Positions 40,430-61,770 of a DNA stretch of 64,000 nucleotides are shown here, one piece after another (position 1 is the first letter of the stretch; the number at the start of each line of letters is the position of its first letter). The position numbers and the translations under genes are program-made. The stretch covers positions 1,240,001 to 1,304,000 of the forward strand of contig NZ_AP022577.1 of the NCBI RefSeq assembly GCF_010730955.1, read 5' to 3'. Source of the stretch: Mycolicibacterium aubagnense (lineage in GTDB: Bacteria > Actinomycetota > Actinomycetes > Mycobacteriales > Mycobacteriaceae). The notes under the pieces were generated by a model that was not told the DNA's origin, did not search any database, and was given only the letters and a program-made list of their open reading frames with translations.

Positions 40430-40446
40430 TTCTCCAAAATAGAGAA
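40430..40446. promoter_or_regulatory. 17-bp operator-like palindrome, site A
   Basis: TTCTC-CAAAATA-GAGAA, 17 bases before the start of the ligase gene. It matches sites at 54410 and 61754; with the 54.4-kb copy the similarity extends into both flanks (ending GCCA-TATC on the right), giving over 30 related bases. Confidence 0.6.
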
Positions 40447-40554
40447 AGCCAATATCGCCGGTTGGGCCTTGGCGCTGAAAACTTTGGCCACTTTGTTTGC
40501 GCTGGTCACGGTAGGTAACTAGCGCCCCATCTGGCACGCTCACTTGTCAGTGCT

Positions 40555-40570
40555 TCGAACTAGTGTTCGC
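40555..40570 (+). promoter_or_regulatory. LexA (SOS) box
   Basis: TCGAAC-TAGT-GTTCGC matches the mycobacterial LexA consensus TCGAAC-N4-GTTCGA in 11 of 12 fixed positions. It ends 3 bases before the ATG of the 13E12-type gene, as known for several M. tuberculosis 13E12 genes induced by DNA damage. Confidence 0.8.
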
Positions 40571-40573
40571 AGC

Positions 40574-41974
40574 ATGAGATTCGCCGATCCGGCTGTTATC
40601 GAGGAGGCCTACGCCGACCTCGAAGCTGACACCACCCGGATCGCAGACCTCGACTACAGCAGGTTGAGTGTGCCGGACCTACTGGAGTTGCAGTCCCGCC
40701 GCGAACGACAGAAGTGCGCCGCCGAAGCGGTCGATCACCGCATCCTGGCCGCCCTGGTAGCCCAAACCAGCCCGAAAGAGATCGGCGGGAAAAACTGGGC
40801 CGACGTGCTGCGGATCCGCCTGCACATCGACGCCAAGGAAGCCCGCCGGCGGGTTCGGGATATGGAGAATCTAGGTCCACGATTGGGGTTGACCGGCGAG
40901 GTGTTGCCACCGCGGTGGGAAGAAGCCGCCCGGGCTCAAGCCGATGGGGCGATCAACACCGACCACGTCGAAGTGATCGCAAACTTCATGGCGAACCTGC
41001 CCGACTGGGTGGATCCGGCGACCACAACCCAGAGTGAGCAGACGCTGGTGGCCCGGGCGAGGCACCAGACCCCCGAAGAGCTGCGAGCCGCGGCCAACAA
41101 ACTGCTCTACGAACTCGACCAGGACGGGCCCGAGCCCGACGACACCGAACGCGACCGCAAACGCGGGATCAGCCACGGTAAGCAACGCCAGGATGGGACC
41201 TCGGAGGTCAGCGGCCCCCTGACCCCCGAAGCCCGCGGGTATTGGGATGCGATCTACGACAAGTACGCCGCCCCCGGGATGTGCAACCCCGCCGATGAGG
41301 TGCCCTGCATCAGCGGGACGCCCACGGCGGAGCAGATCGCGGGCGACACCCGCACTCTCGCGCAACGTCAACATGACGCGCAGATGTGGGTCGCCCGCAT
41401 GGCCCTGACCTCAGGCATGATGGGCGAACACAACGGGCTACCCGTCACCGTGATCGCGACCGGGACCGTCACAGACCTCGAACGCGGCGCCGGTGTCGCG
41501 GTCACCCATACCGGGACGAAGCTGCCGATCCGAGATCTGATCCGTATGGCGGGTCAGGGTGCGCATCACTATCTGACGGTGTTCGACCAGCACAGCAGCA
41601 TTCCGCTGTATCTGGCCCGGGCCCGCCGCACCGCATCACCGGGCCAACGCCTCGCCCTGTTCGCCGCCCACCTGGGCTGCACCCGACCCAATTGCACCGC
41701 CCCAGCCTCGCGCTCCCAAGCCCACCACCTGATCCCATGGAAACACGGCGGCAGCACCGACATCACCAACCTCACCCTGGCCTGCGGCTGCGACAACCGG
41801 CTCGCCGACACCGGCGGCTGGAGCACCACCATGGGCCCCCACGGCCGCACCCCGTGGACCCCACCACCACTCTTAGATGTCGGCCAACCAAGAACGAATC
41901 AGTATCACCACCCGACGCTGCATCCCACCGAGGGTGAGGACGCCGATGGCGAAATCGAGAGTCCCACAGACTGA
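40574..41974 (+). CDS. 13E12-family protein: DUF222 plus HNH endonuclease domain
   Basis: 466-residue member of the repeated mycobacterial 13E12 family. A helical DUF222-type region (about residues 30-330) is followed by a C-terminal HNH nuclease-like domain with CTRPNCTAPASRSQAHHLIPW, then GGSTDITNLTLACGCDNR; the paired cysteines and the His-His core look intact, so zinc binding and nicking activity are possible. The start is ATG 40574, just behind a near-perfect LexA box, implying SOS induction with an almost leaderless transcript. The family occurs in many copies per genome and is often associated with insertion or recombination sites; no repeat ends are visible here. Cellular role unknown. 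Confidence 0.88.
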   Translation: MRFADPAVIEEAYADLEADTTRIADLDYSRLSVPDLLELQSRRERQKCAAEAVDHRILAALVAQTSPKEIGGKNWADVLRIRLHIDAKEARRRVRDMENLGPRLGLTGEVLPPRWEEAARAQADGAINTDHVEVIANFMANLPDWVDPATTTQSEQTLVARARHQTPEELRAAANKLLYELDQDGPEPDDTERDRKRGISHGKQRQDGTSEVSGPLTPEARGYWDAIYDKYAAPGMCNPADEVPCISGTPTAEQIAGDTRTLAQRQHDAQMWVARMALTSGMMGEHNGLPVTVIATGTVTDLERGAGVAVTHTGTKLPIRDLIRMAGQGAHHYLTVFDQHSSIPLYLARARRTASPGQRLALFAAHLGCTRPNCTAPASRSQAHHLIPWKHGGSTDITNLTLACGCDNRLADTGGWSTTMGPHGRTPWTPPPLLDVGQPRTNQYHHPTLHPTEGEDADGEIESPTD

Positions 41975-42131
41975 TTGGCATTCATGGCGGGGTGGCAGCC
42001 ACCGCGCGATGCCGCACGCGCAGGCGGCAGGCCGGCACGGCACGCACCGTAGGGCCTACACCTCGGCCTGCGCACTCGTGGCCTTCCGCAATACGCTCCC
42101 GCGGAGGAACTCTCAGATCGGGAGACACGCG

Positions 42132-43400
42132 CTAGCCGGCAGGACTGAACTCCAGATGCAGCTCGGTGAGCCCGCGCATCTGCCAGGTCGGCTCGTAGGT
42201 GTAGCGCCGCGTGCCGGCCGGGCCATGGTGCTCTTCGCTGATGCGGATGTCGGCCATTCGGTCGAGGATCCGGTTGAGCGAGATGCGGCCCTCGGCCCGT
42301 GCCAGCGGTGCGCCGGGGCACGAATGGCTCCCCCGGCCGAACGCGATGTGCTCGCGCACGTTGGGCCGGTCGAGACGAAATTCATGGGGCTGCTCGAACT
42401 TTCGCTCGTCGCGGTTGCTCGCGCCGGGCAGGAGCATCACCATCGAGCCGGCCGGCACCACGGTGTCACCGACGGTGGTCGACGTACGCGCCATCCGGAA
42501 GTGACATTTCACCGGGCTCTCCATCCGCAGCGCCTCCTCGACGAAAAGCGGTATCAATTCCCGGTTTTCGCACAGCAGCTGCTGCATGTCGGGGTTCTCT
42601 CCGAGCACCTGCATGCCGAAGCTCAGCAGCTTCGTCGTGGTCTCCTGGCCCGCCGCGAACACGAACGTCGCCAACCGCACGACATCGATGATCTCGGGCG
42701 TCGATCCGTCCGGGTATTTCGCCTGCGCCATCTCGGTCAGTACGTCCTCGCGCGGCTCGCGGCGGCGCTCGGTGATGTAGCCGGTGAATTTCTCGTCGAG
42801 CCATTCCAGTGGGTTGTGAGCGCGGGTGACGGTGTCGTCCGTGATATCGCCGACCACCTGGCTCCCGTTCACCGCCCGGAACTCGTCGTGGTCGGAGCGC
42901 GGTATGCCCAGCAGGTCGGCGATCACCAACCCGGAGAACGGCCGCGCGTAGTCGGCCAGGAATTCGCCCGATCCGCGGGAGACAAACCGGTCCAGCAATT
43001 GGTCCGACAGCTCCCACATGAAGTCTTCGTTCTCCTTGAGCCGCTTGGGGGTCAGTAGTCGGCTCAGGAGCCCGCGGGTTCGGGCATGCAGCGCACCGTC
43101 CTGGGTGACGATGTGTTCGCTCATCGGAATCCGATCGCGGTACTCCTCGAGCAAATCACTGATGTCGTCGCCTTCCGGCTGAAAAGGCAACCCGGAGAAG
43201 GGGCCTGCCACCGACACGCACGACGAGAACGCGCCGTCCTTGTAGACGGCGAGCGCTTCGGAGTGCCCCGACACCGCCAGCACCCCGTGGTGCGGTTGGT
43301 CCAGTACAGGGCATTTCGCGCGCAACCCGTCGAAATAGGGGTACGGATCGTCGACCAGCGAAGGATCGGCGAAGAAGTTGGTCGAGTCGAGGTCGGTCAT
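42132..43400 (-). CDS. Cytochrome P450 (last gene of leftward operon)
   Basis: 422-residue bacterial class P450. Oxygen-binding I-helix motif AAGQETTTK, the ExxR segment EEALRMES and heme-ligand loop FGRGSHSCPGAPLAR (Cys near residue 360) are present. AGGAG lies about 6 bases before the ATG. It needs ferredoxin and reductase encoded elsewhere. It follows another P450 by 19 bp in an operon with an aldehyde dehydrogenase, SDR, AveC-like membrane protein and binding-protein fold, suggesting sequential hydroxylation and oxidation of a hydrophobic substrate. The CYP family cannot be fixed without a search. Confidence 0.93.
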   Translation of the reverse strand: MTDLDSTNFFADPSLVDDPYPYFDGLRAKCPVLDQPHHGVLAVSGHSEALAVYKDGAFSSCVSVAGPFSGLPFQPEGDDISDLLEEYRDRIPMSEHIVTQDGALHARTRGLLSRLLTPKRLKENEDFMWELSDQLLDRFVSRGSGEFLADYARPFSGLVIADLLGIPRSDHDEFRAVNGSQVVGDITDDTVTRAHNPLEWLDEKFTGYITERRREPREDVLTEMAQAKYPDGSTPEIIDVVRLATFVFAAGQETTTKLLSFGMQVLGENPDMQQLLCENRELIPLFVEEALRMESPVKCHFRMARTSTTVGDTVVPAGSMVMLLPGASNRDERKFEQPHEFRLDRPNVREHIAFGRGSHSCPGAPLARAEGRISLNRILDRMADIRISEEHHGPAGTRRYTYEPTWQMRGLTELHLEFSPAG

Positions 43401-43419
43401 CAGACGCTCCTGGTTGATT

Positions 43420-44625
43420 TCAGCCGAACAGCACGGGCAAGGCGGTCGGCGACCGGAAGACCTGCCCACGGATATGGGGGGCCTCGGCCGCAGGGTCCAA
43501 GCGCAGATTGGGCAGCCGGTCGAACAGCAGGTTCAGCGCCACCCGCATCTCCAGCCGGGCGAGGTGCATGCCCATACACACGTGCGCGCCGTGCCCCCAT
43601 GAGATTGGCGTGCGGGCCGCCCGGAAGATGTCGAAGCTGTCCGGATCGGCGTAGCGGTCCTCCTGGCGGTTCGCGGCCCCGAGCATCGGCATCACCGACG
43701 AACCCGCCGGGATGTCGACGCCACCCAGCTGAGTGTCGCGCACGGCGACGCGGGTGATGGTCAGCAGCGGCGCCTCCCAGCGCACCGCCTCCTCGATGGC
43801 CTGCGGGATGAGCGACCGGTCGGCCCGGACGGCGTCGAGTTGGTCCGGGTGGGTCAACAGGCCGAGCAGCAGGTTGCCCAGCGAGCGGTAAGTGGTCTCC
43901 ACGCCGGCCGGCAACAGCAGCCGCAGGAACGAGAAGATCTCGTCGTCGTCGAGCTTCTCGCCGTCGATTTCCGCCACGGCGAGGCTGCTGATCAGGTCGT
44001 CCTGCGGGTCGGCGCGGCGGGCAGCAAGGATCGGGGCGAAGTACTCCTCCAGCGCCTTGGAAGCGGCCTTCCCGCGTTCGGGATTGATGGTGAACGACAA
44101 CAGCGAGATCGACCACCGCTGGAACTGCGGGTAGTCCTCTTCCGGCAGGCCCAGCAGGCCGGCGATGATCCGGGTCGGGTAGGGAAAAGTGAATTCCTTC
44201 ACCAGGTCCACCTGGCCGTCGCCGACGAAGCCGTCGATCAGTTCGTTGCCGACACGACCGACCAGGTTCCCCTCCCATCGCGCAAGAGCCTTCTGGGAGA
44301 ACGCCTTTGATACCAGCGCACGATGTCTGCCGTGGTCGGGCTCGTCCATACCCAGCATCACCCGCTGTCCCAGCACCTCACCGAACGCCTGGATCACGAT
44401 GGCCGACGAGAAGGTCTCGTTGTCCCGCAGCATCGTGGCAATGTCCTCGTGGCGGTACACGATGAACAGCGGCTTGCCCTCTTCGCCCGGCATCACCGAC
44501 ATGTCGATGCGCTGGATGCCCTCCTCTCGCCGCAGTCGGGCCATCTCGGTGTAGGGGTCGCGGACGTCACCCGACACGACGTCGTCGAACGCGCCGAAAT
44601 CCTCGAGGTCATCGAACAGCTCCAT
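43420..44625 (-). CDS. Cytochrome P450 (fifth gene of operon)
   Basis: 401-residue soluble P450 with I-helix LLLPAGVETTYRS, EEAVRWEAP (ExxR) and heme loop WGHGAHVCMGMHLAR (Cys near residue 348). AAGGAG lies 9 bases before the ATG. It differs clearly from its neighbour, so the two P450s probably act on different positions or successive intermediates. The gene follows the aldehyde dehydrogenase by 25 bp. This P450 type, with Ala-Gly-Val-Glu-Thr-Thr in the I helix, is common among mycobacterial enzymes for lipids and terpenoids; that is only a hint. Confidence 0.93.
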   Translation of the reverse strand: MELFDDLEDFGAFDDVVSGDVRDPYTEMARLRREEGIQRIDMSVMPGEEGKPLFIVYRHEDIATMLRDNETFSSAIVIQAFGEVLGQRVMLGMDEPDHGRHRALVSKAFSQKALARWEGNLVGRVGNELIDGFVGDGQVDLVKEFTFPYPTRIIAGLLGLPEEDYPQFQRWSISLLSFTINPERGKAASKALEEYFAPILAARRADPQDDLISSLAVAEIDGEKLDDDEIFSFLRLLLPAGVETTYRSLGNLLLGLLTHPDQLDAVRADRSLIPQAIEEAVRWEAPLLTITRVAVRDTQLGGVDIPAGSSVMPMLGAANRQEDRYADPDSFDIFRAARTPISWGHGAHVCMGMHLARLEMRVALNLLFDRLPNLRLDPAAEAPHIRGQVFRSPTALPVLFG

Positions 44626-44650
44626 TGTGTTGGGCTCCTTGGGTTTCTGG

Positions 44651-46120: not shown

Positions 46121-47123
46121 GATCCCCGCTCTCGGAGGTGTTTCTGGTGGACGAAAGGCGCATCCCCACAGCGGCGACGCGTTGCAGAACGGCGGTCGGC
46201 ACGATGCGGGCAGCCAGCACCATGGCCCGCTGCCCGGCCGTCAAGTGGATCGCGCCCGGCCGCAGTCTGCCCTGACGCGGCAAGCCCATCGCGATCCGCA
46301 CCATCTGATGCAGGCCCGCCGTCGGCAGCACCTTGTTCGATAGCAACAGCATTCGCGCGTCGAGGCCGACCGGGTGCTTGGTGAACGGTCCGCCGTCCTC
46401 CAGCGCCGCGGCCAGGCCACGGGCAAACCGTTCGGGTGACTGCGCCAACCGCATCGCCGCGCGGCCCCGCTTGTCGATGTTGCGGTGGTGCGGGGCATAT
46501 GGGCCGTCGAAATCTCGGAGGTCCGTGGTCCCGGCGTCGGTGATGATGTCGGTGTCGAACGTGCCGGTGACCAGAACGGTGACGCCCAGTCCGAACGGGG
46601 CGACCTCACCGGCCAGGGACTCCGCCCAGCGTTCGAGGGCACCTTTCGCGGCGGAATACGCTGCGATGGCGGGCATTCCGCGGACCCCACCCTGGCTGGA
46701 GATCACCACGATCCGGCCCTGACCGGCTGCCCGCATCGCCGGCAGCAGCGCCTTCGTGAGCAGTACCGGACCCGTCACGTGGGTGGCGAGCATCTGGTCC
46801 CACAACTCGATGGGCGTCTCCTCCACCATCCCGGCCGCCGAGATTCCCGCGTTGTGCACCAACGCATGCGGGGCGCCCACGGCATCCTCGATGAGTTCGG
46901 CCGCCGCGGCGATCGACGCCCGGTCCTGTAGATCGAGGGGCACGCCGATCAGGCGCGGGTCGTCGTCGAGTGCACCGGTGGCCTCGCGCAGCCGTGGCAT
47001 TCCCGCGTCCGGGGTCCGCATCGCGGCGACCACCCGCCAGCCATCCCGATAGAGGCGCACCGCGGAGGCGAAGCCCAGCCCCCGGGATGCGCCGGTGATG
47101 ACGACCGTGCGTGACTCAGCCAT
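46113..47123 (-). CDS. Short-chain dehydrogenase with C-terminal extension
   Basis: 336-residue SDR, longer than the 250-residue classical form. It has TGASRGLG, HNAGIS, a Ser-containing VISSQGG and catalytic YSAAKGA, then an additional 90 residues with PRQGRLRPGAIHLTAGQRAM of unknown role. ATG at 47123 is used; further in-frame DNA upstream would run deep into the preceding gene. It overlaps the genes on both sides by 8 bases, giving a tightly coupled AveC-like/SDR/aldehyde dehydrogenase trio. Likely an alcohol dehydrogenase-type oxidoreductase in the operon's pathway. Confidence 0.88.
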   Translation of the reverse strand: MAESRTVVITGASRGLGFASAVRLYRDGWRVVAAMRTPDAGMPRLREATGALDDDPRLIGVPLDLQDRASIAAAAELIEDAVGAPHALVHNAGISAAGMVEETPIELWDQMLATHVTGPVLLTKALLPAMRAAGQGRIVVISSQGGVRGMPAIAAYSAAKGALERWAESLAGEVAPFGLGVTVLVTGTFDTDIITDAGTTDLRDFDGPYAPHHRNIDKRGRAAMRLAQSPERFARGLAAALEDGGPFTKHPVGLDARMLLLSNKVLPTAGLHQMVRIAMGLPRQGRLRPGAIHLTAGQRAMVLAARIVPTAVLQRVAAVGMRLSSTRNTSESGDHV

Positions 47124-49447: not shown

Positions 49448-50236
49448 TCAGTCCCGCAGGTAGACGTCGATCATCTCGTCGAGACCCCGGCCCACAATCG
49501 GATCGTCGGTGAGTGGACCGGCGATGGCCGCGCGGGCAGCCTCCGGCGCGCTCAGCCCCTCGGCGATCAACCGTCCGGCGGCGATGAGCACCCGGGTCGA
49601 GGCCACCTCCCGCAGGCCGGCAGTCTCCAAGCGGCGTATCGCGTGCGCGAACGACACCAGGCGGGCCGCGGCATCACTGCCCACCCCAGCCTCGTGCGCG
49701 ACGATTTTCTCCTCGACTTCGCCTGCGGGGAAATCGAATTCGATGGCGACCAGCCGTTGCCGGGTCGAGTCCTTCAAGTCTTTCAACACACTCTGATAGC
49801 CCGGGTTGTAGGACACCACCAGACCAAAACCCGGGGCGGCATCGAGCGTGATGCCGAGCCTCTCGATGGGCAGCTGCCTGCGATGATCAGCCAGCGGGTG
49901 CAGCACCACGGTCGTGTCCTGCCTCGCTTCGACCACCTCGTCGAGATAACAGATGGCGCCCTCCCGGACGGCCCGGGTCAGCGGGCCGTCGACCCACTCG
50001 GTCTCACCACCCCGCAACAGGAATCGTCCGACGAGGTCGGCCGTGGTCAGGTCGTCGTGGCACGACACCGTGATCAGCGGGCGACCCAGGTCGTAGGCCA
50101 TGGCCTCGACGAAACGAGTCTTACCGCAACCGGTCGGCCCTTTCAGCACTATCGAAAGCCCCTGCCGGAAGGCCGCTTTGAATACCTGCTCCTCGTTGCC
50201 GACCACTACGTAGTAGGGCCGCGCCCCTGCCGTCAT
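49448..50236 (-). CDS. MoxR/NorQ-CbbQ-type AAA+ ATPase
   Basis: 262-residue AAA+ protein. Walker A GPTGCGKT (residues 33-40), Walker B ICYLDEVVEA (about 97-106), and a sensor-type SYNPGYQS are present, with a C-terminal lid. NorQ/CbbQ ATPases work with a VWA-domain partner to activate or insert metal into enzymes such as NO reductase or Rubisco. The ATG overlaps the VWA gene stop by four bases, so they form a pair. No NO reductase or Rubisco gene is present; the target is probably an enzyme of the neighbouring oxidation operon, which is inference. Confidence 0.9.
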   Translation of the reverse strand: MTAGARPYYVVVGNEEQVFKAAFRQGLSIVLKGPTGCGKTRFVEAMAYDLGRPLITVSCHDDLTTADLVGRFLLRGGETEWVDGPLTRAVREGAICYLDEVVEARQDTTVVLHPLADHRRQLPIERLGITLDAAPGFGLVVSYNPGYQSVLKDLKDSTRQRLVAIEFDFPAGEVEEKIVAHEAGVGSDAAARLVSFAHAIRRLETAGLREVASTRVLIAAGRLIAEGLSAPEAARAAIAGPLTDDPIVGRGLDEMIDVYLRD

Positions 50237-51939
50237 ACAGCTGATCCTTTGGTGGTGGGTTTCGAGATGCACCGACGGACGTCGGCCGACTGCAACGCCG
50301 ATCGGAACAGCGGGCCGATGGTGACACTGAGCTGATCGAGCCGCGGCAGTATCGCATGCGCAGCACTGCCGAAAACCTTTCGCAATTGGTCGGTTTCGGT
50401 GCCGGCGCCGACAGTCAGGCACAGACAGCCGATCCCCTGGCGCCGAGCTTCGGCAAGGGCATGACGAGCGTCTGCCGCCCCGTATGCCCGCTCGTAGCCA
50501 TGGTCGTACGCAAGCCCATCGGATAGCACGACCAGCAGCCGCCGCGCGGTGCCGCCGTCGCGTTGCAGCACCGCAGCTCCGTGCCGGATCGCCGCACCGA
50601 GCCGCGAGTAGGCGCCGGGGCGCAGACCGTGGAGACGGCGCAGCACCACTGCGCTCACGTCGTCGCCGAAACGCTTCACCGGCATCGTCCGCACCGCCGA
50701 ACGCCCTTGGGATTGAAAGGCATACAGCGCCACGCGGTCACCGAGGTCGTGCAGCGCGACCATCAACGCGGCGGCGGCGGCCCGCTGGTGTTCATGCACC
50801 GTCCGCCCCGCGGGGCCGAGTTGCCCCACCGAACCGGAAGTGTCCAGCAACAGCAGTACCGACAGGTCGCGGCGGCGCCGGAGGCTCGCGATGTACACAG
50901 CCTCGTCGGGCGCGGAACCCGCGAGTAATTCCGCCTGCGCCTCGACCGCGGCGTCGATGTCGATATCGTCGCCCTGAGCCTGCCTGCGGCACCGATCGAG
51001 CCCGACACCGAGCCGAGCCAGCGGCCGGCGCAGGCCATGGGCGTCGGGCACCCAAGGCACGCTGGTCCGGTCGGGCTCGGGTTCGACCTCCTGGACCGTG
51101 CACCAGTCCGCCCGGTAGCCGCGCCGGTGGACATCCCACTCCGGATAGCTGAATCCGCCGGTGTCCCAGGCACTCCCCTCGTCGGCAGCGGTGGCCATCG
51201 AGACCACGGCATGCCCGCCGCCCACCGGTCCGGACCGGGTCCGGTGCGTCGGGGTATCGGCACCAGGCGTGCCGCCCTCCCCGAGCTTGCGCGCCATCGA
51301 CATCATCTTCGCGAGCAGCTTGCCCACGCCACCGCCACCGCCGACCGGGCTGGTGAAGATGTCCACAACATCGCCTTGGTCTTCGTCGGTGTCACAGGGT
51401 AGTTCGGCAAGTTCACACTGTCGCCGGCCACGCGGAACATGCTGGCCGTGCCCGCCGTATTTCGCCGCCGCCAAGACCTTTCGCGATCTGATCGCACCGA
51501 AGATCGGGGGCGGATCCGCGATCGGTTCGCGGCCGAACGCCAGGGCGAGGGATGCATCGGGCGAGTCGCTGCGGCGCGCGAGGTCCGTGTCGATGAGTAC
51601 CCGCACCGCCGGCGGCAACAGTGCCTCCATCTGTGCCAGGGCGCGGTGGCCTTCGACGGCCAGATACCGGCGCGCGATGTCGCCGCGCCGGCCGATCCGG
51701 CGCATGATGTCGGCGTCCAGGCTGCCGGCCGCCAACAGCGACGACTGCACCGCCAACGCGCGCCGCTGATCGATCGCGGTGGCGGACGGATCGACGAACA
51801 TCGTGTCGCCGTCGGTCCACGCCGGCTCCCCCGGAACGGCCTCCGCGACGTCGACGGGGCGGCCCGCCATGGCGGATGCGAGCAGGCCGAACCGGTGGAT
51901 GTCCTCACCGGTCGCGTCGGTCTCCACGGAATCTGTCAT
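50233..51939 (-). CDS. NorD/CoxE-like VWA-domain protein
   Basis: 568-residue protein with an N-terminal helical region, a Gly/Pro-rich middle (about residues 190-250) and a C-terminal von Willebrand A domain whose metal-ion site LLLLDTSGSVGQ lies near residue 360, followed by VVLSDGLAYD. This is the NorD/CbbO-type partner of the AAA+ protein encoded immediately downstream. The pair would form a remodelling complex that docks on a target through the metal-ion site. ATG at 51939 is used; upstream in-frame codons overlap the opposing promoter. A TGTTCCAC element lies 27 bp before the start. Confidence 0.86.
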   Translation of the reverse strand: MTDSVETDATGEDIHRFGLLASAMAGRPVDVAEAVPGEPAWTDGDTMFVDPSATAIDQRRALAVQSSLLAAGSLDADIMRRIGRRGDIARRYLAVEGHRALAQMEALLPPAVRVLIDTDLARRSDSPDASLALAFGREPIADPPPIFGAIRSRKVLAAAKYGGHGQHVPRGRRQCELAELPCDTDEDQGDVVDIFTSPVGGGGGVGKLLAKMMSMARKLGEGGTPGADTPTHRTRSGPVGGGHAVVSMATAADEGSAWDTGGFSYPEWDVHRRGYRADWCTVQEVEPEPDRTSVPWVPDAHGLRRPLARLGVGLDRCRRQAQGDDIDIDAAVEAQAELLAGSAPDEAVYIASLRRRRDLSVLLLLDTSGSVGQLGPAGRTVHEHQRAAAAALMVALHDLGDRVALYAFQSQGRSAVRTMPVKRFGDDVSAVVLRRLHGLRPGAYSRLGAAIRHGAAVLQRDGGTARRLLVVLSDGLAYDHGYERAYGAADARHALAEARRQGIGCLCLTVGAGTETDQLRKVFGSAAHAILPRLDQLSVTIGPLFRSALQSADVRRCISKPTTKGSAV

Positions 51940-51966
51940 ACCTCGCCACAACCTTGACCAAATATC

Positions 51967-51983
51967 TGTTCCACCATAGAGTT
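51967..51983. promoter_or_regulatory. 17-bp operator-like element, site S2
   Basis: TGTTCCACCATAGAGTT lies between the divergent VWA gene (27 bp away) and SDR gene (91 bp away). Within a 16-base window it shares TCTGTTCCAC-NN-TAGA exactly with the site before the tandem-TetR gene, and it fits the looser A/B/C palindrome family. Confidence 0.5.
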
Positions 51984-52074: not shown

Positions 52075-53007
52075 ATGATTGACTTCGCGGGACAGTCGGT
52101 GATCGTGACCGGGGCCGGCCGCGGCCTGGGCCGCCTGTACGCGCTCGAACTCGCCCGCCGCGGAGCCGCCGTGGTTGTCAACGACCTGGGCGGCTCGATG
52201 CGGGGTGACGGCGCGGATCCCAGCGTGGCCGACGATGTCGTCGCCGAGATCACGACCGCCGGCGGCTGTGCGGTGGCATCGCATGATTCGGTGGACACCC
52301 CGGCGGGCGGTGCCGCGATCGTCGCCACGGCGGTCGAGAGTTTCGGGCGGGTCGACGCGGTGATCAGCAATGCCGGCATCTTCAACAGCATTGCGTTCGA
52401 GGACCTCTCGGCCGACGACTGGCGCCGGATGCTGAGCGTGCACCTCGACGGCGGTTTCTACCTGAGTCAGCCGGCTTACCGCGTGATGAAGAACCAGGGC
52501 TACGGACGATTCGTCTTCGTCTCGTCGTCGGGCGGCATGTTCGGTCAGCCGATGGAAGCGCACTACGCGGCGGCCAAGGCGGGTCTGGTCGGGCTCTCGA
52601 ATGTCATCGCGATCGAGGGCGCCGCCCACGGCATCCTGTCCAATACGGTGCTGCCGTTTGGCTTCTCCCGCATGGTCACCGAGACGGTTGGCGATCCGAA
52701 AGCCCTGGAAGAGACGGGCTTCCTGAAACTGATCGCACCAGAGTTGGTGGTGCCACTCGCGGTGTTCCTGGCCAGCCGGACCTGCGAGTTCACCCACCAC
52801 AACTATTCAGCTTGCGCGGGACGTTACGCGCGGGTGTTCGTCGGTCTCGGTGATGGCTGGCTGGCCGGCACCGAACCCGCGCCGAGTGTCGAGGACCTCG
52901 TCTCGCATCTCGACGAGGCCACTGCCACCGAACCGTTCGCCATACCCGGCTCGATCTTCGAGGAGGTGTTCGGCGTCTGCGATCGCCTGGGCGTCAAGGT
53001 CTTTTAG
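52075..53007 (+). CDS. SDR, multifunctional-enzyme-type 3-hydroxyacyl-CoA dehydrogenase-like
   Basis: 310-residue SDR whose start, VIVTGAGRGLGRLYALELA followed by VVVNDLGGS, is that of the peroxisomal multifunctional enzyme 2 / 17-beta-HSD type 4 group, which oxidises (R)-3-hydroxyacyl-CoA. SNAGIF, the SSSGG segment and YAAAKAG complete the active site. GGAG lies 6-7 bases before the ATG at 52075. It is divergent from the VWA-AAA+ genes and upstream of the tandem-TetR gene with an 58-bp gap. It probably acts in side-chain beta-oxidation together with the nearby crotonase. Confidence 0.87.
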   Translation: MIDFAGQSVIVTGAGRGLGRLYALELARRGAAVVVNDLGGSMRGDGADPSVADDVVAEITTAGGCAVASHDSVDTPAGGAAIVATAVESFGRVDAVISNAGIFNSIAFEDLSADDWRRMLSVHLDGGFYLSQPAYRVMKNQGYGRFVFVSSSGGMFGQPMEAHYAAAKAGLVGLSNVIAIEGAAHGILSNTVLPFGFSRMVTETVGDPKALEETGFLKLIAPELVVPLAVFLASRTCEFTHHNYSACAGRYARVFVGLGDGWLAGTEPAPSVEDLVSHLDEATATEPFAIPGSIFEEVFGVCDRLGVKVF

Positions 53008-53047
53008 GCCACGATCGAACCGTTACCGGAGCAGGACCCCGAACTTC

Positions 53048-53064
53048 TGTTCCACGCTAGATTG
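53048..53064. promoter_or_regulatory. 17-bp operator-like element, site S3
   Basis: TGTTCCACGCTAGATTG lies directly before the tandem-TetR gene, with TAGATT also fitting a -10 element. It abuts the first possible GTG start (53066), which argues that translation begins further downstream and that the protein represses its own gene. Confidence 0.5.
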
Positions 53065-53065: not shown

Positions 53066-54370
53066 GTGGAGCGTGGTAGCCGACCGCGCACGTCCGGAGG
53101 GAGGGCTCTGCTGACCCACGCATATGACGACGGCACCCGTCGGACCGAAATCCTCCAGACCGCCGCGTCGCTCATCGCCTCCACCGGCCTGCGGACGTCG
53201 CTGCAGGAGATCTCCACCGCCGCAGGCATTCTGCCTGGCAGCCTGTATCACCATTTCGAGTCCAAGGAAGCGATCCTGGTCGAGCTGATCCGGCGCTTCC
53301 ATGCCGATCTCCATCGGATCGGCGCCACCGCCCAGGAGCGGCTCGACGGACCCGACGCCGCCCCGTTCCCGGAGAAGATCGTCGCGCTCGGGTCCGCCAT
53401 CGCGCGGTGCGCCGTCCAGCACGGCGCTGCCCTGCAAATGTCGTTCTACGAATCCCCCAGCGACAACCGCGAACTCGTCAAGCTGCTCGGTGAGCCGCAC
53501 ACCGCCGTCCAGCAGGCCATGCTGAACACCCTCCGCGCGGGTAAATGGGCCGGTTACCTCAGGCCGGAGATCTCCGACCTCCCCACGCTGGCCGACCGCA
53601 TCTGCCAGTCGATGATGCACGTGGGCCTCGACGTGATTCGGAACAACGCGTCTCCCGATCAGGTCGCCACGGTCATGTGCCGGATCATGCTCGGCGGCCT
53701 GGCCGGCCGGCTGCCCACCGATGCCGAACTCGACCGCTCGCCCGCGCTTGGCGTCGCCCGAGCCGCGATCGAAACCTGGTCGGACGACGTGGTTTCCGAA
53801 GGCAGCGACAGAGCGATCCACGTGCGCGCGGTGGCACGGGCCGAATTCGGCCGTCGCGGTTACGAAGTCACCACGATCCGGGACATCGCGTCGGCAGCCG
53901 GGATGGGGATCGGGACCGTGTACCGACTCATCGGGTCGAAGGAAGAACTTCTGGCCTCCATCATGGCGTCCTTCGGCACGAAGGTGGGCGAGGGTTTCGA
54001 CCGCGTGCTGAGGGCGGACGCGACGCCGGTGCAGAAGCTGGACGCGCTGAGTTGGGTGAACATCAACGCACTGGACCGGTTCCCGGACGAGTGGAAGATT
54101 CAGCTGGCTTGGATGCGACAGTCACCACCTGATACGCCCGCCATCGGTCTGGCGTTCACCACCCGTATGCGGCAGCTGAAGACCCTGGTGTCGGAGGGCC
54201 TGCGGTCCGGCGATATCCGCATCGACAGCCCGAACCGCGAAATGCTGGCCCGCTGCGTCATGGACGTGTTGTGGATGCCGCAGAACATCGTCGCGGCCGA
54301 AGGCACGCGCGCGGCGTTGATCACCGCGCGCGACACCATGGTGCGCGGCATCGCCGTCCGCGACACCTGA
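53066..54370 (+). CDS. Tandem double-TetR transcriptional regulator (Mce3R-like architecture)
   Basis: About 420-434 residues with two complete TetR units in one chain. The first helix-turn-helix (TSLQEISTAAGILPGSLYHHF, interrupted) is near residues 35-75, followed by a helical ligand domain; a second helix-turn-helix (EVTTIRDIASAAGMGIGTVY) is near 265-290 and is followed by another ligand domain. M. tuberculosis Mce3R has the same layout. The start is uncertain: GTG 53066 is contiguous with a putative operator, whereas CTG 53108 has an ideal GGAGGGAGG site 7 bases upstream. It sits between the SDR and crotonase genes and is the best candidate for the regulator of the 17-bp operator family here. 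Such a pseudo-dimer could recognise asymmetric sites. Confidence 0.85.
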   Translation: MERGSRPRTSGGRALLTHAYDDGTRRTEILQTAASLIASTGLRTSLQEISTAAGILPGSLYHHFESKEAILVELIRRFHADLHRIGATAQERLDGPDAAPFPEKIVALGSAIARCAVQHGAALQMSFYESPSDNRELVKLLGEPHTAVQQAMLNTLRAGKWAGYLRPEISDLPTLADRICQSMMHVGLDVIRNNASPDQVATVMCRIMLGGLAGRLPTDAELDRSPALGVARAAIETWSDDVVSEGSDRAIHVRAVARAEFGRRGYEVTTIRDIASAAGMGIGTVYRLIGSKEELLASIMASFGTKVGEGFDRVLRADATPVQKLDALSWVNINALDRFPDEWKIQLAWMRQSPPDTPAIGLAFTTRMRQLKTLVSEGLRSGDIRIDSPNREMLARCVMDVLWMPQNIVAAEGTRAALITARDTMVRGIAVRDT

Positions 54371-54409
54371 GTCGCAGCATCCCCCTTGGCCAGCACTGCG
54401 GTGATGCTA

Positions 54410-54426
54410 TTCTCTCAAATGGAGAA
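54410..54426. promoter_or_regulatory. 17-bp operator-like palindrome, site B
   Basis: TTCTC-TCAAATG-GAGAA (ATTCTC/GAGAAT when extended), 24 bp upstream of the crotonase ATG and 39 bp after the tandem-TetR stop. It resembles site A over more than 30 bases including flanks. Confidence 0.6.
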
Positions 54427-54450
54427 TGCCACTATCAGTTAGGTAGCGCC

Positions 54451-55221
54451 ATGCAGGGCCAGCACAGCGACGGGTCGCGTTCGGTGAACGTGGAGTTCGA
54501 CAGCGGGTTGGCTGTGCTGACCATCGACCGCCCGCACGCCCGCAATGCGATTTCGCTCGACACGATGGACCAGCTGAATGCCGCGCTGGACACCGTGGTC
54601 GAGGCCCGGGTGCTGGTGATCAAGGGCGCGGGAGACCGCGCCTTCGTGTCGGGCGGGGACCTCAAGGAACTGGCCGCCATCACCACTCACGACGAGGCCG
54701 CCGAGATGGCGTGGCGGATGCGCGGCATCTGCGATCGGCTGGTGAATTTCAGCGGCCCGGTGATCGCCGCCCTCAACGGGCACGCGCTCGGCGGGGGCGC
54801 GGAGTTCGCCACCGCCGCCGACATCCGGCTGGCGGCCGACGACATCAAGATCGGCTTCAACCAGGTGACCCTGCAGATCATGCCGGCATGGGGCGGCGCG
54901 GAACGCCTGGCCGCGCTCGTCGGCCCTGGCCGGGCCCTGATGCTCGCGGGGACCGGGGAGGTGCTCAGCGCTGCTGAGGCCGAACGAATCGGCCTGGTGG
55001 ACAAGGTGTTCGAGCGGTCACGCTTCGACGATGGCTGGCTCCAGGTGGCCCACGCACTGACGGCAGCGCCGGTGCGCGATATCAAGCGGGTGGTCCGGGG
55101 GCTGTCACCCACGGACGCCGTGGACGCCTTCGCCCGGCACTGGATTTCCGACGAACATTGGGAAGCCGTCGACAATCGCACCAAACCGGTGCAGAGTCTT
55201 GACGCAGGACGCCCAGCGTGA
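54451..55221 (+). CDS. Enoyl-CoA hydratase/isomerase (crotonase)
   Basis: 256-residue crotonase-fold protein. The CoA and oxyanion-hole segments RAFVSGGDLKEL and NGHALGGGAEFATAADIRLA are present, followed by QVTLQIMPAWGGAERL in the region that holds the catalytic glutamates; the usual Glu of the second position appears as Gln/Met here (VTLQIMP), so it could be an isomerase or other crotonase activity rather than a standard hydratase. Its promoter carries palindrome B. It follows the tandem-TetR gene and the next gene starts 11 bp later. Role: double-bond chemistry on an acyl-CoA of this degradation block. Confidence 0.87.
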   Translation: MQGQHSDGSRSVNVEFDSGLAVLTIDRPHARNAISLDTMDQLNAALDTVVEARVLVIKGAGDRAFVSGGDLKELAAITTHDEAAEMAWRMRGICDRLVNFSGPVIAALNGHALGGGAEFATAADIRLAADDIKIGFNQVTLQIMPAWGGAERLAALVGPGRALMLAGTGEVLSAAEAERIGLVDKVFERSRFDDGWLQVAHALTAAPVRDIKRVVRGLSPTDAVDAFARHWISDEHWEAVDNRTKPVQSLDAGRPA

Positions 55222-57121: not shown

Positions 57122-57123
57122 GT

Positions 57124-57891
57124 TCACCGCGCGATCCACACCGAGTCCAGTGCGTAATCCGACAGGTACTTGGTGGAACTCCACCCGCCGTCGACAACGA
57201 TGGTCTGGCCGTTGATGAAACTCCCTGCCTCCGAACACAGGAACGCCACGGTGCCGGCAACGTCCTCGACCCGGCCGAGCCGTTGGTGCGGGGTCATCTC
57301 GACGTTGATCTTGCGGAACCGCTCGTCGTCCAATCGGTGTGCGACCATCGGTGTGACGGTGACTCCGGGCGCCACGGCGTTGCACCGGATGCCGTGCGCG
57401 CCATACTGGCATGCGATGTGTGTGGTCAACGCTGTCAGCCCGCCTTTGGCCGCCGAATACGCGCCGCCGCGCAGCCCACCGACGACGGCGAAAGTCGACG
57501 TGACGTTGATGATCGCCGAACCCGGCGCCAGGTGCGGGATGACGTCGCGGGCCAGTCGGAACGGCGCACGCAGCATCAGCCCCAGGGCGTAATCCAGTGC
57601 CTCGTCGTCCGTTTCGTGCAGCGGCTTCGGGCTGCCGACCCCGGCGTTGTTCACCAGAAAATCAATGCGTCCCCACCGGCTGAGCGTGGCCTCGACGATG
57701 CGGGACGGCGCATCGTCGTCGGTGAGATTCACGGCCAGGGTGGCGATGCGGTCGGGGTTGCGCTGTCGCAATTCCGCCAGGCGGGTTTCATCCCGACCGG
57801 TACCCAGCACGGCCATGCCGGCCTCGGCCAGCGTTGTCGCGCAACCGAATCCGATCCCGCTACTGGCGCCCGTGACTATCGCTACCTGCAT
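57124..57891 (-). CDS. Short-chain dehydrogenase/reductase
   Basis: 255-residue classical SDR: VTGASSGIG, NNAGVGS, a serine in NVTSTFA, and YSAAKGG with NAVAPGV downstream; all catalytic residues are present. ATG at 57891 (MQVAIVTG) overlaps the stop region of the upstream ligase by 10 bases and its own stop is 2 bases before the next start, so the three genes are coupled. Probable NAD-dependent oxidation of a secondary alcohol in the same pathway as the two flanking ligases. Confidence 0.9.
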   Translation of the reverse strand: MQVAIVTGASSGIGFGCATTLAEAGMAVLGTGRDETRLAELRQRNPDRIATLAVNLTDDDAPSRIVEATLSRWGRIDFLVNNAGVGSPKPLHETDDEALDYALGLMLRAPFRLARDVIPHLAPGSAIINVTSTFAVVGGLRGGAYSAAKGGLTALTTHIACQYGAHGIRCNAVAPGVTVTPMVAHRLDDERFRKINVEMTPHQRLGRVEDVAGTVAFLCSEAGSFINGQTIVVDGGWSSTKYLSDYALDSVWIAR

Positions 57892-59339
57892 GTCAGCCTC
57901 GCTCTGATCTGGTGCTTGAGAACCTTGCCCGCGTCGTTCTTCGGCAGCGCATCCCACGTCTCGACCTGCTCGGGAACCTTGAACCGCGCGATTCCCTTCG
58001 CCACCAGGAAGCTCCGCAATTCCGCGATCCCGGGTGGCGAGCCTGCGGACGGCACGATCACCGCACAGGCCCGTTCGCCCGTCCGCTCGTCGGGCAATCC
58101 CACGATGGCAACCTCCGCGATACCCGGATGGCCGACCAGGATGTCCTCGACTTCCTTGGGCGCGATGTTCTCACCGTTGCGGACAATGATGTCTTTGGCC
58201 CGTCCGGTGACCACGAGGCAGTCGCCCTGCCACCGGCCGAGGTCGCCCGTCGGAAAATACCCTTCCGCGTCGCGGGATTCGTCCTGTGGGTGACGGTAGC
58301 CGACGAGCATCTGCGGTCCCCGGACCCGGATCTCGCCCACGACGAGCCTGATATCGGCGATCGCCGGGCGACCGTCGGTGTCCGCGGCGGCGTCGGGATC
58401 ATCGAGCGCGCCGACCGTGGTGACCGGAACCTCGGTGGAGCCGTAGACGCGGCTGACCTTGGCCCGTTCGAAATAGGCTGTGGCCCTGCGAATCAACGAT
58501 GATGGCACGGATGCTCCGCCGCAGATGAACACCTTCAGGTCGGGTAGCCGGGTCCCGGCCCGCGCGGCGGCGTCCAGAATCTGTTCGAGAAACGGCGTCG
58601 CGCCGGCTACGTGGGTACATCGCTCGGCGACCATGAGCGCCACCGCCTCGTCGGCGTTCCAGCGCTCCATCAGCACGGCGGTGGTGCCGAGCAGCAGCGG
58701 GCACTCGAACGCGTAGATGGAGCCGCCGATGTGGGCGATCGGAGAAGGGACGAGAAAGGTGTCACCCGGCTCGATCAGCCAGTGGTCACGTAGCTGCCCG
58801 ATCAGCGCACCGATCGAATTATGGCTGTGCAGTACACCTTTCGCGCGTCCGCTGGTGCCCGAGGTGTACAGCAGCAGCGCGGGGTCATCGGGTGCGACGG
58901 CCGGGAAATCCGATGGCACCGCGGCGGCCGGCAGTGCGCCGTCGCGCACCGCGACGATCTCTGGCGGCGTGCCCATCGCCGCCGTCACGCGAGCGAGCAT
59001 GGCGGCGTAGTCATGGCCGCGAAACTCTCTCGGGATGAAGATCATCCGGCAGTCCGCGTCAGCGAGGATGAACGACAGTTCATGGTCCCGCAGCGACGGC
59101 AGGATGGGGTTCACCACCATGCCCGCGAGCGCTGCCCCGAGGTAGACGACCGCGGCCTCAGACCAGTTCGGCAGCATGAACGACACCACACTGCCGCGCG
59201 GCAGCCGCGCAGAAAAGTGGGCCGCCAGCGCACACGCCTCGCCATACAGCCCGGCGCCATCGACGCGGTGCGCACCGTCGATCAGGACGGTGCGGCTGCT
59301 GGTCGCGAGTTCGCGGAGGCCATCGACGATTGTCCGCAT
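57882..59339 (-). CDS. Acyl-CoA ligase (FadD-like)
   Basis: 485-residue ANL ligase with LYTSGTSGRAKGVLHS, SRVYGSTEVPVTT, YFPTGDLGRWQGD, GRAKDIIVRNGENIAPKEVE and the catalytic lysine in DAGKVLKHQI. It resembles cyclohexanecarboxylate-CoA ligase-type enzymes in the RVYGSTEVP motif. ATG at 59339 has GAGG 5 bases upstream; a GTG one codon earlier is equally possible. It follows the GntR gene by about 7 bases and overlaps the SDR gene downstream. Confidence 0.88.
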   Translation of the reverse strand: MRTIVDGLRELATSSRTVLIDGAHRVDGAGLYGEACALAAHFSARLPRGSVVSFMLPNWSEAAVVYLGAALAGMVVNPILPSLRDHELSFILADADCRMIFIPREFRGHDYAAMLARVTAAMGTPPEIVAVRDGALPAAAVPSDFPAVAPDDPALLLYTSGTSGRAKGVLHSHNSIGALIGQLRDHWLIEPGDTFLVPSPIAHIGGSIYAFECPLLLGTTAVLMERWNADEAVALMVAERCTHVAGATPFLEQILDAAARAGTRLPDLKVFICGGASVPSSLIRRATAYFERAKVSRVYGSTEVPVTTVGALDDPDAAADTDGRPAIADIRLVVGEIRVRGPQMLVGYRHPQDESRDAEGYFPTGDLGRWQGDCLVVTGRAKDIIVRNGENIAPKEVEDILVGHPGIAEVAIVGLPDERTGERACAVIVPSAGSPPGIAELRSFLVAKGIARFKVPEQVETWDALPKNDAGKVLKHQIRARLTCR

Positions 59340-59346
59340 CACCGCC

Positions 59347-60078
59347 TCAGCTCTTGACCCGCCGCATCGTCATCGAATGCCGGTACCGTGCCGCCGGATG
59401 CGTGTTGACGGTGACCTGGGCGATGTCACCGTCCGACGTCCGGTAGGTACGCCGCATCTGGAGGGCGGCCGTCCCCAGGTCCACCTTGAGCTCCGCAGCC
59501 AGGCGGGATGAGACGACCACCGCCGAAATCTCTTGGTGCACTTCAGCGATACTGACACCGAACAGATCCTCGAGCAGCGGGAAGATGGGCCCCGAGTGCC
59601 GGTGCAGCAACCGGCCGACGGCCGCGAACTCGCGGTTGATGTAGTACTCGGTGCGACAGATGGGCGCACCGTTGCCGCTGCGGAAACCCTCGACCGCCAG
59701 CCACTGCGAGCCGAGCGCGAGCCCGGTCCTGGTCTCGTGATCGGCATCGACGGTCACCATGGCGGTGGACACGATCTCGAACTGTGCGCCCTCTGCAAAG
59801 GCCAGCAGATCGTCTATCGACATCACGTCCTGCGCATAGGCGTTCGCCGTCGACCTGGGCACCACCAGGGTGCCCGCGCGCGGCTTCGACTCGACCAGGT
59901 TGTCGTCGCGAAGTCGGCGCAGGGCTTCCCGAACGGTGTAGCGGGACACGGCGAATCGCTCGCAGAGTTCGTGTTCGGTGGGCAGCTGGGAACCGACGGG
60001 GTACACCCCGTCGACGATCTCCTTGCGCAGAGTGCGCGCCACCTGCAGGTAGCGATGTTCGGCGGTCGGGGCGGTCAC
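59347..60078 (-). CDS. GntR-family regulator with UTRA domain (HutC type)
   Basis: 243-residue GntR regulator. The winged helix (about residues 10-75) has YPVGSQLPTEHELCERFAVS then RYTVREALRRLRDDNLVE; the C-terminal UTRA-type ligand domain (about 95-243) includes SQWLAVEGFRSGNGAPICR. GTG at 60078 is chosen because GGGAG lies 5 bases upstream and it overlaps the NHL-gene stop as GTGA; GTG 60084 is an alternative. As an internal gene of the operon it probably controls that operon in response to a pathway intermediate. Whether it binds palindrome C is untested. Confidence 0.88.
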   Translation of the reverse strand: MTAPTAEHRYLQVARTLRKEIVDGVYPVGSQLPTEHELCERFAVSRYTVREALRRLRDDNLVESKPRAGTLVVPRSTANAYAQDVMSIDDLLAFAEGAQFEIVSTAMVTVDADHETRTGLALGSQWLAVEGFRSGNGAPICRTEYYINREFAAVGRLLHRHSGPIFPLLEDLFGVSIAEVHQEISAVVVSSRLAAELKVDLGTAALQMRRTYRTSDGDIAQVTVNTHPAARYRHSMTMRRVKS

Positions 60079-61709
60079 GAGCACTCCCGACGCAGAGCGA
60101 GCACGCTGCCGTCGCCGTCGGCAGAGACATAGAGGGTGCCGTCGGGTGCCGCGGCGATGCCCGCGAACGGGCCCTGCGGCCCGGAGAACGGCGGCAGGCC
60201 TTTGAGTGGTTTCGGCGCCACCCCGGGTGGCGCGCCGATGGGCAAATCCCAGGCAATGCTCGTGCGGGCCTTGCTGTTCAGATCGAACACGACAATTTCC
60301 TTGCTGCCCGCATCGACGACGTAGAGCCGTCCATCAGCCACGACGATGCCCTGTGGGCACCCCAACCCGTCGGCTACGACCTCGACCATCGAGCCCGTCA
60401 GTTTCACCACCCGGCCCGCCGCCGATTCCGAGACCAGCACCCCGCCGCCAGGCGCCATCGCAACCCCCACCGGATCCAGCAATCCCGTCGCCAGTGTCTC
60501 GACCCCACCGGCCCGCACCGCGAGCACCCGGCCCGACCCGAGTTCGGCGGCGACCACGGTATCGCCGTCGACCGCCACCCCGTACAGCTGGTCGAATCCG
60601 TCTGCCAGCACCTCGGTTTCGGCGCGGGCGGGCGCATACCGACTGATCTGACCACCCGAAGTGGTCACCACGAACTCTCCCGCACCACAGGGCGCCAGGC
60701 CGCGCAGGAACCCGGGATATCCCGGTGAGAACAGCATCCCGACCGTCTGCAGCCCACCGTCGGCGCCCACCGCATAGAGGTAGGTGCCGTCGGCGATGTA
60801 CAGTCGGCCATCATCTCCGACCGCGAGGTCCAGCGGCCAGTTCAGCCCACCCGGCAGCAGAGCACGCGTCGATCCGTCGGGGAGAATCTCGGTGATCTCG
60901 CCCGTGAAATGTGATGCGAACAAACGATTTCCGACAAAGGTCAGGTTGTCGAGCCCCGGCGTCAGCTGCGCCAGCACACGTTGTTCGCCACTGCGCGGGT
61001 CGATGCGGAGTACTTGTCCGCTGGCCACCTGAGTGGAAACCATGAAGCCGTCGGCATCGAACTTCACCGCGTCGGGCACCCCGAGGCCTGCCGCAACCCG
61101 CTGCGGCTCACCACCATTCGGGTCCACCCGCCAGATCTCATTGGCACTCAACACCGGAAAGTACAGCATTCCATCGGGACCGATTTCCATCGCGTTGGGT
61201 GACGGCAAGTCCTCCAACAGAACCCGCACCACTCCCCCGTCACGGTCGAGCTCCATCAGCCGCCCACCGTCACGACATTCGTTGACGAACACCCGATCCT
61301 GGTGCACCGTGATGCCGTTGGCGCTGGGAAGGTCGTCCCGAAGCACGCGGGTCCGGCCCGCGGTGTCGAGCACGCTGACCCGGCCGTCCATCACCTCGGT
61401 GGCGTACAGGTTTCCGGCTGCGTCGAACGCAACGTCGTCGGGCGCGATGATGTCGCCGCCCTTGGCGGCCACGGTCGCCAGCTCTCCGGTGACCGGGTCC
61501 AGGGCGCTGATCTGACTGCCGGTCACCTGCGCGACGTAGATGCGCCCGTCGGGACCGGTACGCAATCCGTTGGCACCGAACAGCCGACTCGGCGCGGTCA
61601 CCCGGTCCAGACGCCAGCCCTGCGCAACACTCGGTCGGGTCGCGATATAGCGGCTCATGAGCGGCGACGGTATCAAGCCGCAGTAGTCCAGACAATAGGG
61701 CGTCGTCAT
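60075..61709 (-). CDS. NHL/SMP-30-like beta-propeller protein
   Basis: 544-residue protein made of repeated NHL/SGL-type blades, each with patterns such as GPDGRIYVAQ, DAAGNLYATEV, DADGFMVSTQ, GDDGRLYIADG and APDGTLYVSADG. There is no signal peptide, so it is cytoplasmic. Strictosidine-synthase-, lactonase- and gluconolactonase-like propellers use similar repeats, so it may be a lactone hydrolase or a binding scaffold; no catalytic set is clear. It is the first gene of the leftward operon with GntR, two ligases and an SDR, and is divergent from the SDR-Rieske genes across a gap holding palindrome C. Confidence 0.82.
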   Translation of the reverse strand: MTTPYCLDYCGLIPSPLMSRYIATRPSVAQGWRLDRVTAPSRLFGANGLRTGPDGRIYVAQVTGSQISALDPVTGELATVAAKGGDIIAPDDVAFDAAGNLYATEVMDGRVSVLDTAGRTRVLRDDLPSANGITVHQDRVFVNECRDGGRLMELDRDGGVVRVLLEDLPSPNAMEIGPDGMLYFPVLSANEIWRVDPNGGEPQRVAAGLGVPDAVKFDADGFMVSTQVASGQVLRIDPRSGEQRVLAQLTPGLDNLTFVGNRLFASHFTGEITEILPDGSTRALLPGGLNWPLDLAVGDDGRLYIADGTYLYAVGADGGLQTVGMLFSPGYPGFLRGLAPCGAGEFVVTTSGGQISRYAPARAETEVLADGFDQLYGVAVDGDTVVAAELGSGRVLAVRAGGVETLATGLLDPVGVAMAPGGGVLVSESAAGRVVKLTGSMVEVVADGLGCPQGIVVADGRLYVVDAGSKEIVVFDLNSKARTSIAWDLPIGAPPGVAPKPLKGLPPFSGPQGPFAGIAAAPDGTLYVSADGDGSVLALRRECS

Positions 61710-61753
61710 CGCACCGAACCTCTTGACGAGCTGATTCTCCCTGCGGAATAGTG

Positions 61754-61770
61754 TTCTCCAATATGCAGAA
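61754..61770. promoter_or_regulatory. 17-bp operator-like palindrome, site C
   Basis: TTCTC-CAATATG-CAGAA; extended it reads TGTTCT...AGAACA. It lies 44 bp before the propeller start and 26 bp before the divergent SDR start, and its left flank (GGAAT-GT) matches site A. Confidence 0.6.

Follow-up and report, generated by a model that had tools for sequence, protein, structure and literature searches.

The stretch of DNA analysed here (the window; 64,000 nucleotides, C1:1240001-1304000, where C1 is contig NZ_AP022577.1) comes from the 6.32-Mb, two-contig genome of Mycolicibacterium aubagnense and carries a block of catabolic genes, several of whose promoters contain palindromic, operator-like sites of the form TTCTC-N7-GAGAA. 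Site A (core 40430-40446, TTCTCCAAAATAGAGAA) precedes the minus-strand gene for an AMP-binding CoA ligase (38860..40413), and site B (core 54410-54426, TTCTCTCAAATGGAGAA) precedes the plus-strand gene for a crotonase-family enzyme (54451..55221), these genes being their presumed targets. Site C (core 61754-61770, TTCTCCAATATGCAGAA, one mismatch) lies between its putative target, a minus-strand gene for a beta-propeller protein (60075..61709), and a plus-strand SDR gene (61797..62648), the first of an SDR-Rieske operon. Site D (51958..51982, plus strand) lies between two putative targets, a minus-strand VWA-domain gene (50233..51939) and a plus-strand SDR gene (52075..53007), whereas site E (53039..53063, plus strand) stands before the plus-strand gene for a tandem TetR regulator of 434 amino acids (53066..54370). 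All of these enzyme, propeller and VWA assignments are from Pfam. An earlier note on this DNA treated the five sites as one operator family, the tandem TetR as its local regulator and 38-64 kb as a single regulon. All five strings are present where it placed them, and its distances of 16-45 bp to gene starts hold roughly (16 bp for A, 24 bp for B, 26 bp for C), save that E is only ~4 bp from the likeliest GTG. Its list missed a further core operator, GAGAATATTATTCTC, at 37355..37369, upstream of the minus-strand gene 36340-37308; this site reads GAGAATCTTATTCTC in the sole relative locus checked that covers the position (L247).

In its exact form, the palindrome is far more frequent in the window than chance would predict. 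The exact form TTCTCN7GAGAA occurs twice against 0.04 expected, a number that none of 400 Markov shuffles reached; with at most one mismatch there are 3 places against 0.83 expected (P ~0.06), and with at most two mismatches there are 14 against 13.2-13.7, so that the loose form is uninformative. The sites are also conserved. The tandem TetR points to Mycolicibacterium llatzerense (96%) and to Mycolicibacterium sp. CBMA 234, CBMA 226 and lyk4-40 as the closest named relatives, and all four are syntenic with the window over 43-64 kb at ~85-88% DNA identity; around the SDR gene to the right of D, alignment is missing in CBMA 226 and lyk4-40. When the window and these four relatives are aligned, B, C, D and E stand out as conserved islands. 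Sites A, B and C are palindromic and keep their arms; in B, in particular, variation is limited to the core (TTCTCTGAAAAGGAGAA in CBMA 234), with the arms fixed. All four relatives, and a second copy of A in the same genome, preserve a 33-bp block at A that reaches into the gene start; the bases immediately upstream of it differ, and in M. llatzerense and the second copy the entire upstream stretch is unrelated.

The spacing of dyads allowed the operator to be resolved further. Within the 160 kb that begin at the window start, five of the nine dyad pairs spaced 10-44 bp apart (mismatch sum of at most 6) are separated by exactly 22 bp, and from this preference the operator resolves into half-sites, ATTCTC and GAGAAT, with gaps of 3 and 7 bp. 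The TTCTC-N7-GAGAA form is therefore one phase of an array of which GAGAAT-N3-ATTCTC is the other, and additional, degenerate half-sites can be recognised in the conserved flanks of A and B. We scored arrays as matches to GAGAAT-N3-ATTCTC-N7-GAGAAT-N3-ATTCTC (maximum 24, cut-off at least 17). By this measure site A (40420..40456, GGGAAT-CGT-ATTCTC-CAAAATA-GAGAAA-GCC-AATATC) scores 20/24 and site B (54400..54436, GGTGAT-GCT-ATTCTC-TCAAATG-GAGAAT-GCC-ACTATC) scores 19/24, and by hand count the two are identical at 28 of 37 positions. Site C (61744..61780, CGGAAT-AGT-GTTCTC-CAATATG-CAGAAC-AAG-CTATGT) reaches only 14/24 by hand count and is probably a weaker member, below the cut-off. Between C1:1.20 and 1.50 Mb, arrays at or above the cut-off occupy 15 places as a 37-mer and 14 as a 41-mer, forming 17 distinct clusters between 1.277 and 1.441 Mb, and none occurs in the control, twenty 20-kb pieces sampled from the same chromosome (400 kb in total); shuffled 160-kb sequences (n=20) give means of 0.1 (37-mer) and 0.05 (41-mer) places. 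Likewise, the core GAGAAT-N3-ATTCTC (at least 11 of 12 matches) occurs 12 times in the 300 kb around the block (the 37355 site and A in the window, the other ten to the right) and not at all in the control. A looser pattern matched 154 places and its reversed form 33, but codon use probably raised the count, which was set aside.

The arrays are located where operators would be expected. All 15 clusters with neighbours listed lie at or near the 5' ends of predicted genes, several of whose predicted starts are probably placed too far upstream; the other two clusters, beyond 1.40 Mb, fall outside that listing. The neighbouring genes look like those for CoA ligases, a P450, amidohydrolases, SDRs, an aldehyde dehydrogenase, an acyl-CoA dehydrogenase and a TetR, and an mce operon lies at ~1.315-1.324 Mb; outside the window, protein families were read from the sequence, as they were in the 30 loci described below. 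The elements, their positions, register and conservation, and their restriction to one region can be read directly from the DNA, and the operators and their coherence are well supported. The proposal that an operator family links the promoters of the catabolic block is borne out, and the regulon appears to be real and larger than first proposed: it would reach to ~C1:1.44 Mb, 38-64 kb being only a part of it.

Conservation in orthologous promoters, the check that the earlier note had called for, extends across the genus. A pattern derived from A and B (ATTCTC-N7-GAGAAT-GCCANTATC, 20 fixed positions, at most two mismatches) is found in 156 of 196 same-genus genomes (150 of the 183 good ones), in one to three copies each, and the reversed control is found in none; the N7 core is free and the arms are kept. 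In a set of 30 loci that includes that of the window, the operator commonly stands between a divergent CoA ligase gene and crotonase gene, and otherwise before genes of the same cluster that encode small secreted proteins or an amidohydrolase-like protein. In G073 a single site serves both CoA ligase and crotonase. Sites A and B look like two descendants of one such bidirectional promoter, which would explain their resemblance. In several genomes (L233-L235, L243-L245) a single site lies between SDR/epimerase-like and acyltransferase-like genes, apparently another branch of the regulon. The string TCTCTAAAATAGAGAATA was found in eight stretches of viral_contigs (L082-L089).

Which protein reads the array? 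Among the regulator genes compared, C1:1.24-1.40 Mb, the array is found upstream of the gene for a TetR protein that we call TetR-AVERS (C1:1385726-1386382, 82 kb to the right of the window; array at C1:1385595, in its own promoter region), and not upstream of the tandem TetR gene. The TetR-AVERS promoter array scores 21/24, and in all 32 TetR-AVERS loci compared (L233, L234 and the 30 best matches among 162 genomes) the promoter region carries GAGAAT-N3-ATTCTC-N7-GAAAGT-TAC-AATCTC or a close variant; the scores are 20-26 of 30, whereas none of 640 shuffles exceeded 18. Of the 196 genomes, 162 encode TetR-AVERS, namely 155 of the 156 operator-bearing genomes and 7 of the 40 that lack the operator. 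Operators grouped in one region, relative to the 400-kb control, together with a regulator gene that has an array at its promoter, fit a local TetR regulon; TetR-AVERS does not class as KstR, scoring 18.9 bits with the NCBIfam KstR model against a cut-off of 280. On these grounds TetR-AVERS would be the likeliest reader of the array, with a second protein, TetR-RRIG, next.

Several observations weigh against this assignment. TetR-AVERS lies 91 kb from B here, ~60-140 kb (by eye) from the operator in G169, G020, G087, G037, G046 and G096, and 2.7 Mb from it in the copy listed for G073, distances that speak against a strictly local system. The TetR-AVERS array also faces a divergent acyl-CoA dehydrogenase-like gene, so that it need not be autoregulatory. 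One genome has the operator and lacks TetR-AVERS (G148, 93% complete, 700 contigs), and seven have the regulator and lack the operator pattern. The counts of co-occurrence with the operator do not take phylogeny or linkage into account for either TetR, and linked genes come and go as a unit; moreover, TetR-RRIG co-occurs with the operator as well or better (155/1/3/37) and is mostly within ~6 kb of it. The lattice was first noticed in the same region in which it was counted, the control pieces and the TetR-AVERS promoter test being independent of that choice. Finally, C, at 14/24, may be something other than an array member.

The strongest competitor is that A, B and C are read by TetR-RRIG (C1:1328635-1329225), the TetR nearest the operator in most genomes compared. 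It is present in 155 of the 156 operator genomes and missing from 37 of the 40 without the operator, and comparison by eye of about two dozen genomes puts it mostly ~1-6 kb from the operator; here it is 34 kb from B. However, the divergent TetR-RRIG/P450 promoter bears an element of its own, highly conserved and of the type TGCTGAGCACNTGCTTAGCA (21 loci, 18 genomes), and in the 160-kb segment this element has one perfect copy and otherwise only matches with five mismatches. We consider this reading unlikely, and TetR-RRIG was rejected as first choice for having its own, different promoter element. Somewhat less probable still is that another, unlinked regulator reads the array and that both TetR genes are mere targets or neighbours. 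The comparison was restricted to regulators in the fetched segments, and the TetR-AVERS array faces a divergent enzyme gene, as such a view would allow; yet the arrays detected all fall in a single region, and across genomes they occur together with the regulator genes of that region, as is usual for local TetR regulons.

A look-alike palindrome, TCTCTA-N3-TAGAGA, is abundant in a large mobile element, which lies at both ends of C1 in the own genome (C1:5.91-6.05 Mb and 0-0.12 Mb, L019-L024 and L052-L059) and is also present in three others (G037 C11, G124 and G087); the exact core of this palindrome occurs in 4 of 198 genomes. The element palindromes precede small genes, several of them for XRE regulators that share the helix SRIERGERPCR or a close form, and look like an autoregulated, element-wide repressor system. 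The two ends of C1 (2-15080 and 6040302-6055479) share repeated blocks of ~13.6 and ~1.5 kb, 98.7-98.8% identical, which may reflect a duplication or an overlap left unmerged. Within the element, C1:5973858-5976916 is a second copy of two CoA ligase genes and operator A (window 37398-40456; 93.8% identity over 3059 bp), in which the operator core is changed and the arms are kept.

This captured copy, together with the close resemblance of A to the element sites, raises the question of whether the palindromes belong to a mobile-element regulon with TCTCTA-N3-TAGAGA as operator and element-encoded XRE proteins as readers. Indeed, a model, R1, trained on 14 sites from the chromosome and the element, A included, ranks A second best in the genome, matches at those 14 sites being by construction. 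R1 prefers A/T-rich cores and missed most of the genus-wide operators, finding them in 54 of 196 genomes (E at most 0.3) against 156 of 196 by pattern search; it scored 150 of 182 candidates in the own genome and at most 38 per genome in the genus scan. The four relatives have A, B and C yet only four R1 matches each (E at most 2), and the orthology of the fourth place in G198 (E ~1.2) to the C1:1393559 site is not established. Also against this idea, the exact element-type core is limited to the 4 of 198 genomes given above, the element sites lack the N3 core save in the captured copy, chromosomal XRE matches are weak (best ~1e-11), and the element helix, a narrow motif searched in 30 fetched loci that missed at least one element copy (L287), was found only in element copies. 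A chromosomal XRE regulator was rejected on weak evidence, namely the weak matches and the narrow helix check. We regard it as highly improbable that the palindromes belong to a mobile-element regulon, and the element sites are treated as a separate system.

Sites D and E are of a different kind. D (CCAAATATCTGTTCCACCATAGAGT) is a 25-bp asymmetric element and E (CCGAACTTCTGTTCCACGCTAGATT) is its second copy; the two are identical at 19 of 25 positions, the array is absent from both, and each contains the short element TGTTCCAC-NN-TAGA (51967-51980 in D, 53048-53061 in E). On its own the short form TGTTCCACNNTAGA, with at most two mismatches, is not significant (2 in the window against 1.6 expected), whereas the long form (15 fixed positions) is, being perfect at exactly two places in the genome with none at one or two mismatches. 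The D/E element was found in the window and its four close relatives only; many distant tandem-TetR orthologs (L095-L169) carry instead, in their promoters, a strongly conserved element of another type (CTCTAACAAAGATTTGGTTC or GTTTAACCAAACATTCGGTC). The tandem TetR contains two TetR_N stretches in one polypeptide, and its predicted structure, a single-chain asymmetric TetR fold, aligns with that of Mce3R along both halves (15% identity in the structural alignment), so that it resembles the Mce3R type in both respects. In sequence the likeness is weaker: phmmer matches Mce3R with an E value of 1e-8 over residues 25-103 only, less strongly than KstR2 (7e-12). The protein does not class as KstR either, with an NCBIfam KstR score of 37.3 against the cut-off of 280. 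Mce3R, a double-TetR repressor of Mycobacterium tuberculosis, is described as binding two 25-bp asymmetric sites (PMC11667970). The tandem TetR is like it in having two TetR domains, with the conserved asymmetric elements at D and E as its candidate ~25-bp operators, and differs in its low sequence similarity and in being flanked by SDR/VWA and crotonase genes. These comparisons suggest that D, E and the tandem TetR stand outside the A/B array regulon. The single five-site family was rejected on the restriction of the D/E element to two places: the five sites are all conserved islands near starts and the tandem TetR gene lies directly upstream of B, but the element is absent at A, B and C, the A/B operator occurs in 156 of 196 genomes whereas distant tandem-TetR orthologs bear a different promoter element, and an asymmetric single-chain TetR would not, on the Mce3R precedent, be expected to read a palindrome, which leaves the earlier model scarcely tenable. 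D and E instead form a two-member set of their own.

Site C has its own additional sites. The block around C is kept in all seven aligned genomes, two of them more distant, with the right arm altered in G020. A perfect palindrome, TTGTCCGGACAA (61780..61791), and a second copy, TTGTCTGGACTA (61684..61695, minus strand), are likewise kept in all seven and are the only TTGTCYGGACWA-type sites within one mismatch in the 160-kb segment. The minus-strand gene for a GntR/UTRA regulator (59347..60084; Pfam GntR 2e-21, UTRA 3.9e-17) overlaps the end of the propeller gene, and the two are likely in one operon; the true propeller start may be 61659, because the stretch before it is interrupted by a stop in the ortholog (L224/L238). 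The GntR/UTRA protein is probably the natural reader of TTGTCCGGACAA and TTGTCTGGACTA, candidate HutC-like operators, and was rejected as reader of the array palindromes for these separate TTGTCYGGACWA sites at C. As in HutC-type regulators, GntR and UTRA domains are combined and inverted repeats lie beside the regulator's own operon; in contrast to HutC itself, no NCBIfam family shown reaches its cut-off with this protein (HutC, 100.4 against 220 bits), and the operator assignment is an inferred one.

On balance we favour, with moderate confidence, a scheme in which the block is under at least three local switches, namely TetR-AVERS at the array, the tandem TetR at D/E and the GntR protein at C; the pairing of protein with element, the repression and the ligand are what we infer. 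TetR-AVERS would bind ATTCTC/GAGAAT half-sites with alternating 3- and 7-bp gaps at the promoters of A, B and the 37355 site, and probably C, where repressor dimers, probably bound as adjacent pairs, would keep RNA polymerase out until they were released by a ligand, for which an acyl-CoA or another pathway intermediate is the likeliest candidate. Fourteen more array clusters, one beside the TetR-AVERS gene itself, would extend this control out to ~C1:1.44 Mb. The tandem TetR would act as an Mce3R-like single-chain repressor reading its private 25-bp element and controlling itself and the divergent VWA/SDR genes, and the GntR protein would probably control the operon at C through TTGTCCGGACAA and TTGTCTGGACTA. 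Of the single-regulon proposal, the shared operator family of the block is supported; the membership of D and E and the role of the tandem TetR as its regulator are not. More tentatively, and with less confidence than in the scheme itself, we suggest that one regulator, conserved across most of the genus, may read the lattice in either phase, GAGAAT-N3-ATTCTC and ATTCTC-N7-GAGAAT both being working operators, and that the number of in-register half-sites may set the strength of each of ~17 promoters in an mce-linked catabolic region.

The arrangement has partial parallels in known systems. The KstR and KstR2 regulons, controlled by TetR repressors of sterol catabolism, likewise place lipid-degradation genes under TetR-type control through palindromes, as is predicted here; the arms of the KstR and KstR2 boxes differ from those of the array. 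Among TetR proteins that act as paired dimers, DarR is a dimer of dimers (PDB title) and QacR is described as binding a 28-bp palindrome as a tetramer (PMC4482099). The several in-register half-sites found here suggest two dimers per promoter in the same way; unlike the QacR and DarR sites, they are separated by alternating gaps of 3 and 7 bp, and individual promoters retain one phase or the other. A literature search for TCTCTAAAATAGAGA, or for GAGAATN together with mycobacter, returned no match, its scope excluding figure-only motifs, subscription papers and preprints. The tandem TetR at D and E would add a second example of a double TetR apparently reading an asymmetric operator. Together, these findings define from sequence a regulon with an operator in 156 of the 196 genomes sampled from the genus (~80%), provide candidate regulators and a testable operator code for it, and open a way into a so far uncharacterised lipid or steroid-like pathway linked to mce genes.

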